Shown here piece by piece: positions 7,247-11,152 of a stretch of 21,802 bases of DNA. The stretch's first letter is position 1. Each line of letters starts with the position of its first letter. The translations under genes were made by a program, and so were the position numbers. The DNA comes from a virus: the IMG/VR virus record IMGVR_UViG_3300030085_004068, positions 1-21,802 of that record; one strand, 5' to 3'. The notes beneath the pieces are model-generated. The model made no database searches. It was not told the origin of the DNA and saw nothing but the letters and a program-made list of their open reading frames with translations.

Positions 7247-8074
7247 TCAGATAAAGTCTTTAATAATTTGGTTGAATACTTCTGCTTTTTTTCTAATTGG
7301 ATCTTCCTTCGTTTTCCAGGAGGATTGCGTGTGCCAATTTGTTCCTGCCCTATAGTGCAAGAACTTATTTTCTAAGTGTAACTCAAAGCTAAATCCACCT
7401 TCTGGTTTTGTCCACATATCATCATTGTTTCCAAATACCAAACTAATACCATTGTATTCTTCTGGATACTCTGGACAGTCATCAGGTGTAGTGCCACCCT
7501 CATTCACATTCTTAAATTTGACATTATTCTTTAGGAACCAGTAGTAAAGATGTCCACCAATATCAGTCATGTTTCCTTCAACATTTCCATCAGAAAAATT
7601 TAAGTCAGGATCAATCTTGGTAATCTCAGACATGTTAAAGAACATGATCCCATTCCAGATATACTCAATTGGTCCTCTAACTTGGAGAGAACCAGCAATC
7701 ACTTCGTCTTTAATGTATTCCTCAATAGAAAATTCATCCAAGAGAAACATATCTGAGTCACAGAAAAGAACCATGTCTTCATCATGTTTCTCTTTGATAA
7801 TGGTATCATATGTCCACTGAATCGTCTCAGTAGCGTGTCTGGCTCCTGCAAGAGGATTATCAAACTTCTTGTTAGGATTTTGTGGTTTACGATAATATTT
7901 GATCCCGTAAATATCACAAACGCTTTTGAACTCTTCAGTGATGGATTCCTCCATGGAATCATCGACTACATTGAATTGCCAATCTTCATCTTTCAGAAAA
8001 GTTTTGAACAATCTATATTGTGTTTCAACAAAGTCAGGCCTGTTTACAACAGACGTAAAAATTTGAGTGGTCAT
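7247..8074 (-). CDS. GT-A-type glycosyltransferase
   Basis: The protein has 275 residues. An N-terminal nucleotide-binding half carries the metal/nucleotide motif DSD (D106-D108, in LFCDSDMFLLD) typical of GT-A folds. The C-terminal part is rich in Trp, Tyr and His (for example HYRAGTNWH), which is common in acceptor-binding regions. I cannot place it in a numbered family with confidence. The ATG overlaps the stop of the upstream epimerase gene as ATGA. Following an epimerase and an activated-heptose module, it may transfer the sugar those enzymes make; this is inference from gene order. Confidence 0.75.
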   Translation of the reverse strand: MTTQIFTSVVNRPDFVETQYRLFKTFLKDEDWQFNVVDDSMEESITEEFKSVCDIYGIKYYRKPQNPNKKFDNPLAGARHATETIQWTYDTIIKEKHDEDMVLFCDSDMFLLDEFSIEEYIKDEVIAGSLQVRGPIEYIWNGIMFFNMSEITKIDPDLNFSDGNVEGNMTDIGGHLYYWFLKNNVKFKNVNEGGTTPDDCPEYPEEYNGISLVFGNNDDMWTKPEGGFSFELHLENKFLHYRAGTNWHTQSSWKTKEDPIRKKAEVFNQIIKDFI

Positions 8075-8979
8075 GCATTCTCCTTCAGTTTATTCTTTAC
8101 CCATTGCTCGATTGATACAGTTGGTTCCCATCCAATAACTCTCTTTATTTTATCAATGTTTGCCAGACTTGTCTGCGCTTCACCAGGTCTTGGATCAATA
8201 TGAATCTGATTATCGGTGATTAGATTTGCAAGATCTTTTACTGAAATATTACTTCCACTACCGACGTTATATACCTCCCCGAAATGCTTTGGTTCCAATT
8301 CCTTCAAAGCAGAAAGAACATTTGCCCTTGCAACATCTTTGACGTAAATAAAATCTCTCCTCTGCTTTCCATCACCGACAATTGTCAGAGGTTCTCCTGC
8401 AGCATGTTGCCTGAAGAAAATACCTGTGACAGGAGCATATTGTCCTCTAGTAGGGGCTCCCTCACCAAAGACATTGAAATATCTAAAAACAATGGTTGGT
8501 AGATTATATAGTTCACTATACATCTTACACATTTTTTCACCAGAGATCTTAGAGACTGAATATGGATTCAGACAATCATCTGGCTGAGTCTCGATATTTG
8601 GGGAAGAATTCAGACCATATCCCGAAGAGGTCGAAGAATACATCACTCTCTTTACACCTGCCTCACGAGCACACTGTAAGACAGTGCAGGTGCCAAGAGA
8701 ATTGACTTTCACTGCATTGATCGGATTCTTGATTGCGGGACCAATGCGTGCCTCTGCAGCAGCATGAAACACATAATCAACATTCTTGTATAATTTTCTA
8801 GTCTTAGAATAGTTGAGAATACTTTCCTTATGATTCTCCACATCATCTCTCCAGACAAAGTTATCATTGTCTGAATATTCATTATCGATGACGACAACTT
8901 CATGTCCTAGTTTCAGAAGTTCCTCTACGATATGAGAACCAATAAATCCAGCACCACCAGTAACCAATGATTTAGTCAT
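8071..8979 (-). CDS. Nucleotide-sugar epimerase/dehydratase (extended SDR family)
   Basis: The 302-residue protein is an extended short-chain dehydrogenase acting on a nucleotide sugar. The NAD-binding motif TGGAGFIGSH is at residues 7-16 and the catalytic YxxxK pair is in NPYSVSKISGEK near residue 145, preceded by the serine/threonine-rich YSSTSSGYG. RYFNVFGEG and RRDFIYVKDVA are typical of the UDP-glucose/UDP-GlcNAc 4-epimerase group (GalE/WbpP-like). The exact substrate cannot be read from sequence. It starts 8 bases inside the end of the HAD-nucleotidyltransferase gene, so it may act on that gene's NDP-heptose product rather than on a UDP-hexose. Confidence 0.85.
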   Translation of the reverse strand: MTKSLVTGGAGFIGSHIVEELLKLGHEVVVIDNEYSDNDNFVWRDDVENHKESILNYSKTRKLYKNVDYVFHAAAEARIGPAIKNPINAVKVNSLGTCTVLQCAREAGVKRVMYSSTSSGYGLNSSPNIETQPDDCLNPYSVSKISGEKMCKMYSELYNLPTIVFRYFNVFGEGAPTRGQYAPVTGIFFRQHAAGEPLTIVGDGKQRRDFIYVKDVARANVLSALKELEPKHFGEVYNVGSGSNISVKDLANLITDNQIHIDPRPGEAQTSLANIDKIKRVIGWEPTVSIEQWVKNKLKENA

Positions 8980-9718
8980 AATCTTCTCTTTTGAAATTTT
9001 CGATGGATTGATAAATTTTAGTCTTTAATTTAGTCGTTGAATATCCGTGGTCTCTACTAAGCCATACTATCGGAATATGAATGTCTATGCCAGTGTATGA
9101 ACCATCAATATAATCAGATCCAAGGAACCTCATGTCATATTTTCCACTCCTCAAAAAGTCATGGAACTGATTTTCAGTATGATAATAAACAACATCGTCC
9201 ACATTTTTGAGGGATCGCAATATTTCTTCTCTTTCTTCTGCAGTATGAACTGGTGTCATCTTATGTGCTCGTTCCATAGATGGATCTACATGAAGAGCAA
9301 CAGTGAGATGATTACAACTATTTTTAGCCTCTTCAAAGAGTCTCACATATCCTGGATGGATAACATCAAATGCACCTCCAATGATACCTTTTGTCAAAGG
9401 AAGAGATGCTTTCCAATCTTCAACATTGATACCTTTGTCATCCACAAAGAGATCTGCAGTAGGTTTATGAAACATTGGTTCCAACTCATGATACATCAAT
9501 CTCCACTGCCTCAACTGCATCTTAGTGAGAACAGTATGATCTATTCCAGATCCTCTCCCTCTGGCCGTCATGATAGTAATATGATGTCCCTGCTCATAAA
9601 GACGGTTAACTTGACTAATCATAAAGGGGATGGGATATGAATTCTCATAGTCAGGTTTCCCCTTTTCATTATTTGGTGTGACACATAGAGTGCCATCAAG
9701 ATCAAAACAATATCTCAT
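8972..9718 (-). CDS. Fused HAD phosphatase and cytidylyltransferase-like nucleotidyltransferase
   Basis: Two domains are joined in 248 residues. Residues 1-105 or so form a HAD-type phosphatase: DLDGT (6-10), TARG (51-54) and DDK (93-95). From about 108 the chain is a nucleotidyltransferase of the glycerol-3-phosphate cytidylyltransferase/HldE type: GGAFDVIHPGYVRLF (114-128) and the signature YSTTKLK near the C-terminus. The usual HxGH is HPGY here. The start is the ATG at 9718, overlapping the upstream stop as ATGA; a longer frame to 9751 lies inside gmhA. Following heptose kinase and isomerase genes, it could remove the C7 phosphate of heptose 1,7-bisphosphate and then load the sugar with a nucleotide, completing NDP-heptose synthesis in one protein. 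Confidence 0.82.
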   Translation of the reverse strand: MRYCFDLDGTLCVTPNNEKGKPDYENSYPIPFMISQVNRLYEQGHHITIMTARGRGSGIDHTVLTKMQLRQWRLMYHELEPMFHKPTADLFVDDKGINVEDWKASLPLTKGIIGGAFDVIHPGYVRLFEEAKNSCNHLTVALHVDPSMERAHKMTPVHTAEEREEILRSLKNVDDVVYYHTENQFHDFLRSGKYDMRFLGSDYIDGSYTGIDIHIPIVWLSRDHGYSTTKLKTKIYQSIENFKREDYD

Positions 9719-10218
9719 ACTACTCCATGCAAGAAGATTTGATGAACACACTCAACAACACCATATGATTCACTATCAACATGATAGTTCCACAAAGCAT
9801 ACTGAGACTTTCTCCTTAGGGAATTGTGTGGGTGAAATCCTGTAAGAACTCCATATTTAATACCATACTTTTCACAATGCCTCATGCAATTAAGGATATT
9901 AATTGATTCTCCACCAGAACTCATAAGAACAACAAGAGTTCCTGGTTCTGCATGATACTCCAAAAACTTTTGATATGCATTCTCATATCCAAAGTCATTA
10001 GCTAACATTGTCAGCATTGAGGGATCAGAGAATACACACACCCTCTTCATGTGAAACTTCATGTAATCCTGAGAGATATGAGAAGCAACAGAATTGCTGC
10101 CACCATTTCCCAGGATTATAATCCGTTCATGTTCATTGAATGCTTTTTGATACTTCTCAAACTCACTTTCCATGTGAGCCTTTTCTAAAGTATCAATATA
10201 TTCTCTAAATGGATTCAC
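9715..10218 (-). CDS. gmhA: Sedoheptulose-7-phosphate isomerase (SIS domain)
   Basis: This is a SIS-domain phosphosugar isomerase of the GmhA type, which turns sedoheptulose 7-phosphate into D-glycero-D-manno-heptose 7-phosphate, the first step to nucleotide-activated heptose. The motif GNGGSNSVASHIS (37-49) and the later LMSSGGES are the two phosphosugar-binding loops. I chose the GTG at 10218 because a GGAG Shine-Dalgarno sequence lies six bases before it; an ATG at 10242 would add eight residues but has no visible ribosome site and a longer overlap with the kinase gene. At about 167 residues it is slightly shorter than E. coli GmhA (192). The heptose kinase is upstream and the HAD-nucleotidyltransferase downstream, which supports the assignment. 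Confidence 0.85.
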   Translation of the reverse strand: MNPFREYIDTLEKAHMESEFEKYQKAFNEHERIIILGNGGSNSVASHISQDYMKFHMKRVCVFSDPSMLTMLANDFGYENAYQKFLEYHAEPGTLVVLMSSGGESINILNCMRHCEKYGIKYGVLTGFHPHNSLRRKSQYALWNYHVDSESYGVVECVHQIFLHGVV

Positions 10219-11152
10219 CCGTAACTCCAGTTGAAATAACATTAATTTTAACTTTGTCGAAAGGAATTGTCAAGGAGTTCTTCTTAGAAAAAGTCAAGAA
10301 AAATCCACCGTTCCCAGCACCACAAAGTTTATGAGCAATTACATTTTGACACATTTCCAGAGTATTATCGATAAAAGAAACCCGATCATTCTCAGTAATC
10401 GAAGAACTTGTCTTCTTTTTTTGTGTCCATGCACTATTTAACTCACTTAGGAAGTCATCATAATTTGATTGATTGATGTGGTCATATGCACTATTCAAGT
10501 TATCGAGTAGTGGCTTTATCTTTTCAATATTACAACTCAACTCTTTCAGTATTTTCTTTGAGTTTCTAGTTACACCAGTGAAAACCAGGTGCATATCATA
10601 CTTCTCAAATAATTCCGTGGGAAGATATTCATACTTAATGCTACCATCTCGGAAAAATTCCATTCTCTTAAATCCACCCATACCACATCCATAAGGATCT
10701 TGATATCCACAGTAAGGATTGAACTTGAGTTCGAGTTCATATGCAAGTTTACATATTTCCGAATCAGTCATTTGCTGATCTTTAAAAATGCAGCAGGCTT
10801 TGATAAGAGAAATAATGTATGATGAGGATGAAGCAAGTCCACTTCCTTGGGAATATGCGTCACTTGTAAGTGTCACCTGAACTGGTGGCATTTCAAAGTG
10901 CTCCAGGACAACTCTCACAACCTCATTATCAATCTCCTCAACAGAAGATACCTCTTCTCTTCTTGAATAGTTGATGATATATTTGTGCTTATCTTTATTA
11001 AATCCAAACTTATCTTGACTGATGGTCACATAAGTTTTTAAGTCACAAGTAAAACTCATAACGGATCCATATCCATACTCTTTGACAAAGTATGGATTGT
11101 CAGTAGATCCACCGAACAAAGAAATCCTAAGAGGACAAGAGGCAATAATCAT
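10205..11152 (-). CDS. hddA: D-glycero-D-manno-heptose 7-phosphate kinase-like GHMP kinase
   Basis: The 315-residue protein is a GHMP-family sugar kinase. The N-terminus (SCPLRISLFGGSTDNPYF, residues 5-22) is typical of the HddA and fucokinase-like branch. The ATP-binding glycine/serine loop GSGLASSSS is at residues 103-111, and the C-terminal LCGAGNGGFFL is the third family motif. HddA phosphorylates C1 of D-glycero-D-manno-heptose 7-phosphate. The gmhA gene overlaps its end and the HAD-nucleotidyltransferase follows, so the three steps to activated heptose are consecutive. The ATG overlaps the stop of the upstream GT25-like gene as ATGA. Gene symbol by family and context. Confidence 0.85.
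   Translation of the reverse strand: MIIASCPLRISLFGGSTDNPYFVKEYGYGSVMSFTCDLKTYVTISQDKFGFNKDKHKYIINYSRREEVSSVEEIDNEVVRVVLEHFEMPPVQVTLTSDAYSQGSGLASSSSYIISLIKACCIFKDQQMTDSEICKLAYELELKFNPYCGYQDPYGCGMGGFKRMEFFRDGSIKYEYLPTELFEKYDMHLVFTGVTRNSKKILKELSCNIEKIKPLLDNLNSAYDHINQSNYDDFLSELNSAWTQKKKTSSSITENDRVSFIDNTLEMCQNVIAHKLCGAGNGGFFLTFSKKNSLTIPFDKVKINVISTGVTGESI

Follow-up and report, generated by a model that had tools for sequence, protein, structure and literature searches.

Which sugar is activated by a run of overlapping genes on the viral record IMGVR_UViG_3300030085_004068, and which of its proteins supplies the phosphatase step? The DNA analysed here (the window) comprises bases 1–21802 of this 31203-base record. 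A preliminary description, made from the sequence alone, had placed at 8972–11152 a compact three-gene nucleoside diphosphate (NDP)-heptose pathway, with a GHMP kinase, an SIS isomerase and a fusion of a HAD phosphatase with a nucleotidyltransferase. All three genes are present and overlap on the minus strand, and a conserved epimerase gene makes a fourth member of the cassette (table 1). Both halves of the fusion matched known domains, as had been proposed, so that a four-step activation route would be contained in three genes. We conclude that the cassette probably encodes a coupled pathway converting sedoheptulose 7-phosphate (S7P) to an NDP-heptose for a glycan, a reading that is the best supported, although it is not proven.

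Within the cassette, each start overlaps the preceding stop. The SIS open reading frame (ORF) is open to 10242 (9715–10242), and the start homologous to that of its relatives is the GTG at 10218, which overlaps the end of the kinase gene. The fusion starts at the ATG at 9718, rather than at the first possible start (9751), and overlaps the SIS stop as ATGA, an arrangement typical of translational coupling, which therefore seems probable here; the epimerase in turn overlaps the fusion stop. Scans of viral contigs and genome contigs yielded 73 distinct full fusions. The kinase and SIS genes lie upstream wherever upstream sequence is available (both in 61 of the 73, missing in none), and the epimerase lies downstream in 69. 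Because the same order recurs in 73 distinct sequences, the arrangement is not due to chance. All four genes recur, in unchanged order, in the Synechococcus phage SynMITS9220M01 (MT408532; L025 7554–10633). Heptose functions had already been annotated there for the kinase, isomerase and epimerase (PMC7378029), and the fusion had been left as a hypothetical protein (QJT70212.1).

Of 386 cyanobacterial genomes, only two (G002 and G265) encode this transferase type at E < 1e-60, both with the full cassette; the next-best match was 3e-20. The G265 copy (locus L290, 6468–10569, G265:C3) sits in a 580-kb contig, so the cassette also occurs in a host chromosome. A search for Gp23 in cassette-bearing Prochlorococcus genomes gave no match, but neither did the control, so this search does not show that the cassettes in those genomes are host genes. 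A further full cassette (L033 4148–7272) was found on a low-coverage 11.4-kb contig that is binned as Mycobacterium, probably wrongly.

Structure prediction of the fusion, which the preliminary description had suggested as a check, gave an AlphaFold model with two well-formed domains (predicted local distance difference test (pLDDT) 91, predicted template modelling (pTM) score 0.85). PDB matches for both halves assign residues 1–106 to a HAD phosphatase domain and 108–235 to a cytidylyltransferase-like domain. The HAD domain had been taken for GmhB, an identity that we reject: no match to the GmhB families TIGR00213 and NF006506 was found up to an E-value of 1, and the domain groups with the phage arabinose-1,5-bisphosphatase AfhF. 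Whole-model structural comparison returned matches to the transferase half only, so GmhB folds lay outside that comparison of the HAD half. The closest solved relative is PDB 9iqw (38% identity, E 2.3e-11 to 4.3e-19), titled as the D-arabinose 1,5-diphosphate phosphatase AfhF of phage HY126; this activity assignment rests on the title of the entry, no open paper on AfhF having been found. The curated EcbF-BcbF profile was not reached (16.9 against a cut-off of 162). The best-supported placement of the HAD half, on sequence, fold and HAD motifs I–IV, is probably among AfhF-like sugar bisphosphatases.

Relatives of the HAD half occur in several settings. One is RB69ORF051c, from the RB69 locus for which a role in arabinosylation has been proposed (PMC6024577); its companions there are a KdsD-type isomerase, an NTP_transferase-type transferase and a kinase-like protein with a different fold. 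Another setting is found in P-SSM2-type cyanophages, where members of this HAD family stand beside a PfkB kinase and a transferase that is not fused. One HAD family in three kinase and transferase pairings therefore fits a bisphosphatase acting between those two steps. Bacterial members are mostly free proteins of approximately 100 residues. They often lie in NeuB/NeuA-like (nonulosonate) loci (L037, L045, L055, L061, L062, L066 and L067), most of which also have SIS genes and in which the family may act as a sugar-acid phosphatase. In four other loci (L057, L060, L059 and L070) the domain is fused to a methyltransferase (two loci) or an ATP-grasp domain (two loci). In phrog_1238 and in many phage records, this phosphatase carries the erroneous label ‘phosphoheptose isomerase’.

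A pointer to the substrate of the HAD half comes from the chromosomal copy in G265. Residues D6, D8, T51, K85, D93 and D94 are all kept in 74 of 75 distinct fusions; the exception is G265, in which HAD motif II and the first aspartate of motif IV have been lost without a break in the frame. Compared with its counterpart in L031, the G265 fusion is 46% identical over the HAD half and 63% over the transferase half. A gmhB gene, scoring 157 bits against a curated cut-off of 149.6, lies at a distance of 2.8 kb, and the only HddA-, GmhA- or HldE-like genes found in G265 were the cassette's own. The gmhB profile (TIGR00213) had no match in four other cassette-bearing genomes (G001–G004), SynMITS9220M01 or the window record, some of these genomes being incomplete. 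The best-supported explanation is that gmhB in G265 is a natural replacement for the decayed HAD half; this single case would specifically link heptose 1,7-bisphosphate to the HAD half.

The transferase half matched PF01467 at 4.9e-11. As had been anticipated, it is unlike HddC, the predicted model showing a cytidylyltransferase fold (TagD (1coz), Z-score 17.7; HldC, Z-score 14.7). The rfaE_dom_II equivalog was not reached (58.8 bits, 5.1e-16, against a cut-off of 181.5), nor was the TagD equivalog TIGR01518 (44.8 against 165.4 bits). Across the cytidylyltransferase superfamily, HxGH is treated as the catalytic motif. The assignment to the HldE type holds as far as the related fold; the canonical HxGH is replaced by an invariant HPGY, and the STTR5 motif (F/L)xxGRSTT is absent. 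The corresponding window sequence, RDHGYSTT, is led by arginine as in TagD, not by F or L as in the described heptose transferases. STTR5 is reported as a hallmark of promiscuous HENases only (PMC11573728). Across the 75 fusions H121, R163, D202, R222, S227 and K232 are invariant, and T228 and T229 nearly so. The preliminary description had left the nucleotide undecided, and we agree; resemblance to TagD suggests a mild preference for cytidine triphosphate.

Phylogenetic analysis united the HPGY proteins in a single clade (100/97), whose sister group consists of HxGH proteins of phages and Bacteroidota; the P-SSM2 group stands apart, in a separate clade with HldE-like proteins. P-SSM2-type transferases have HPGH in 80 of 80 cases and a PfkB kinase in 77 of the 80 loci. 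HPGY appears to track GHMP kinases, yet as a single origin and not as a repeated correlation. An uncultured 595-kb phage (LR756511) encodes a 458-residue fusion of a GHMP kinase with an HPGY transferase (L027 3986–5362), with the same epimerase downstream (L027 5978–6883); the 8.9 kb examined contained no recognisable SIS or HAD gene, and no such kinase fusion was found in the viral contigs. No HPGY transferase was detected in 398 Pseudomonadota genomes at E 1e-25, a set without a positive control, and the search of Bacteroidota returned only an HAGH sister family. A transferase of this sister type (L160 3013–3513) lies beside sugar dehydratase and epimerase genes in Synechococcus phage S-B43, where neither a HAD nor a GHMP gene was recognised; this locus appears to be another sugar-activating layout in cyanophages.

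Profile searches matched the kinase to GHMP_kinases_N (6.4e-10) and HddA (7.8e-25), and its matches to heptokinases in the PDB ranged from 1e-20 to 1e-31. Mutation of R13, D22, S118–S120, Q162 or D163 abolishes WcbL activity (PMC4691232); the equivalents in the cassette kinase (R9, D18, S108–S110, Q151 and D152) are invariant in 35 homologues. The model (pLDDT 89.7) has WcbL as its best structural match (TMq 0.86), and sequence and model together place the kinase closest to HddA/WcbL. For the isomerase, the gmhA profile matched at 1.9e-14, PDB structure matches were to GmhA and DiaA only, and the KdsD family profile gave no match. In E. coli GmhA numbering (the reference sequence was checked against the genome), of the four catalytic or metal-binding residues, H61 and H180 are kept, and E65 and Q172 are replaced by aspartate and glutamate, invariantly in the family. 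This D/E pair is common to SIS genes of three cyanobacterial operons with an HddA-like kinase and an HddC-like–GmhB fusion, and is also found in the SIS protein of Caulobacter phage Cr30; the SIS genes of most NeuB-type loci keep the E/Q pair, L061 being an exception.

Taken in order, the GmhA-like SIS protein would convert S7P, possibly supplied by phage talC (TalC makes S7P; PMC2984593), to manno-heptose 7-phosphate. The kinase would then add a phosphate at C1, giving the alpha-1,7-bisphosphate by precedent of WcbL, which acts on the alpha anomer of heptose 7-phosphate (PMC4691232). The HAD half of the fusion would take off the distal (C7) phosphate, and the other half would join the 1-phosphate to a nucleoside triphosphate, yielding NDP-heptose. 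The epimerase, a short-chain dehydrogenase/reductase, may modify this NDP-sugar, and the product would be a donor for glycosyltransferases encoded in the island around the cassette. We infer the identity of the substrate, its anomer, the nucleotide, the product of the epimerase and the glycan target. The heptose reading is favoured because the SIS protein is of the GmhA and not the KdsD type, because the residues essential in WcbL are kept, and because gmhB appears to have replaced the HAD half in G265; to that extent the pathway first proposed is best supported, short of proof. More tentative, and in our view slightly short of evenly balanced, is the fuller proposal of a self-contained viral NDP-alpha-heptose route in which the HPGY bisphosphatase–transferase fusion is a fourth architecture among heptose transferases of the cytidylyltransferase fold, supplies the missing phosphatase and replaces the host-type GmhB and HddC non-orthologously.

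Several observations weigh against a heptose product. The kinase scored 88 bits against a cut-off of 600 for the curated HddA equivalog NF049969, which no control genome reached either, and the SIS protein scored 54 bits against 209.45 for the GmhA equivalog TIGR00441, also reached by none of the five cyanobacterial genomes compared. Because these scores lie far below the curated cut-offs, strict membership of the HddA and GmhA families is not claimed. Replacement by gmhB was seen in G265 alone, and the lack of gmhB matches in other genomes carries less weight because some of these are incomplete. Known HldE/HldC-type transferases prefer the beta anomer, with which the pairing of an alpha-type kinase and an HldE/TagD-fold transferase conflicts. 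Finally, the second histidine of HxGH is tyrosine in 75 of 75 fusions.

The low equivalog scores, the swapped acid residues of the SIS protein and the unique transferase motif would fit an isomerase and a kinase that had drifted to another C6 or C7 sugar phosphate. SynMITS9220M01 adds to this, since another of its kinases matches HddA far better (287 bits) and is encoded with a cupin and an NTP_transferase (L025 941–2941), so that the product of the cassette may be a different sugar; only one SIS_2 match was found in that genome. We nevertheless regard such a substrate as unlikely, as the gmhB replacement in G265 and the SIS signature common to the HddA–GmhB–HddC-like operons both point to heptose. 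Slightly less probable again is activation of a pentose such as D-arabinose, from ribulose 5-phosphate via a 1,5-bisphosphate to an NDP-pentose for glycans or DNA. The closest characterised relative of the HAD half does act on a pentose and not a heptose, and RB69-like phages have an analogous set of isomerase, kinase, HAD protein and transferase (PMC6024577). However, the RB69 SIS protein is of the KdsD/KpsF type (113 bits), its kinase-like protein lacks the fold of the HddA-matching kinase of the window, and it is gmhB that adjoins the one decayed HAD half. That the transferase half is inactive or has another job, leaving the fusion effectively a phosphatase and activation to another enzyme, would account for HPGY, but is very improbable because this half, with the rest of its site invariant, is retained in G265 despite HAD decay and is fused to a kinase alone in LR756511.

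An NDP-heptose product from the cassette can be compared with several known systems. The Campylobacter jejuni pathway (PMC10680097) has the same logic and step order, and the cassette has the corresponding GmhA-like SIS protein and HddA/WcbL-type kinase, with the essential residues kept; the cassette differs in having an AfhF-type HAD domain and a TagD/HldE-fold transferase in place of the non-homologous GmhB and HddC. In cyanobacteria, operons that combine this kinase type with a D/E-type SIS encode an HddC-like NTP_transferase–GmhB fusion of 422–425 residues (L286 in G190, L287 in G132; apparently split in L288, G172). This is a converse fusion of unrelated domains; the domain order in the cassette is opposite, and the cassette includes an epimerase. 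Viral NDP-heptose enzymes, or HENases (Tang et al. 2024), have been described (PMC11573728, PMC11461863) as single-domain, kinase/nucleotidyltransferase and isomerase/kinase/nucleotidyltransferase proteins, and viruses were reported to lack the phosphatase. The cassette shares with them a virus-encoded isomerase, kinase and HldE-type-fold nucleotidyltransferase, but its architecture is phosphatase/nucleotidyltransferase, and both STTR5 and HxGH are absent. The P-SSM2-type transferase and PfkB kinase correspond to T4-GC 304/305 (PMC3037559). These cyanomyoviruses resemble the cassette in having the same HAD family near a cytidylyltransferase-fold transferase and a sugar kinase, and differ from it in that the genes are unfused, the kinase is PfkB, the motif is HPGH and no adjacent SIS gene was recognised. 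AfhF and RB69ORF051c are likewise phage sugar-bisphosphate phosphatases, the latter encoded with kinase-like and transferase genes; AfhF is a stand-alone enzyme for a pentose, and the RB69 partners are a KdsD-type isomerase and an NTP_transferase-fold protein.

A viral source of heptoses had been put forward as noteworthy, but viral heptose genes (PMC11461863), and this kinase and isomerase in the isolate SynMITS9220M01 (PMC7378029), were previously reported. What appears to be new, judged from sequence comparison, is a phosphatase–nucleotidyltransferase fusion outside the three described architectures, with an invariant HPGY for HxGH. The suggested relevance to innate immune signalling is not supported: the heptoses that act as ALPK1 agonists are of the beta form (PMC11573728), the GHMP heptokinase WcbL is of the alpha type (PMC4691232), and the hosts are marine cyanobacteria.

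The gene set is that of a T4-like cyanophage: the alternative-oxidase and ferredoxin genes and plastocyanin-like ORF of the window, together with talC outside it and ribonucleotide reductase genes (noted on inspection) elsewhere in the record, match the signature genes of that group (PMC2984593). Most of the window is occupied by sugar genes, and the cassette sits inside this block on the minus strand. Changing the surface of the infected cell has been proposed as the purpose of cyanophage lipopolysaccharide genes (PMC2984593); mere stuffer DNA has also been considered (PMC3037559).

Table 1. Features of the cassette and of the surrounding sugar block (positions in the window).
Feature	Position	Strand	Basis
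GHMP sugar kinase, HddA/WcbL-like, 315 residues	10205..11152	minus	HddA, PDB heptokinases, WcbL residues, structure
SIS isomerase, GmhA-like, Asp/Glu variant of E65/Q172 pair	9715..10218	minus	gmhA profile, GmhA structures
HAD phosphatase + cytidylyltransferase-like nucleotidyltransferase fusion, 248 residues	8972..9718	minus	domain matches, predicted structure
HAD half of fusion, residues 1–106, AfhF-like sugar bisphosphatase	9401..9718	minus	PDB 9iqw
HAD motif I DLDGT (D6, D8)	9689..9703	minus	
HAD motif IV D93 D94	9437..9442	minus	
Nucleotidyltransferase half of fusion, residues 108–248	8975..9397	minus	PF01467, rfaE_dom_II below cut-off, TagD fold
HPGY, residues 121–124, replacing HxGH motif	9347..9358	minus	75/75 fusions
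NAD-dependent sugar epimerase, GalE/HldD-like, fourth cassette gene	8071..8979	minus	PF01370 2.1e-58; GalE 155 bits and HldD 110 bits, both below curated cut-off
Sugar block: GDP-mannose 4,6-dehydratase, GDP-fucose-synthase-like reductase, aminotransferases, dTDP-sugar epimerase			
Sugar block glycosyltransferases: two GT11, one GT6, GT25			

If the heptose reading is correct, the fusion would fill a named gap, viral heptose pathways having been reported without a phosphatase. It would also add a new domain architecture to the NDP-heptose enzymes, with phages rebuilding a host-type glycan pathway from unrelated parts. The analysis corrects the ‘phosphoheptose isomerase’ label that databases attach to the HAD phosphatase. 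HPGY, being invariant, is an exception on which the catalytic role ascribed to HxGH can be tested. The G265 chromosome, with its decayed HAD half beside gmhB, would be nature's own complementation experiment, opening the function of the fusion to direct test.

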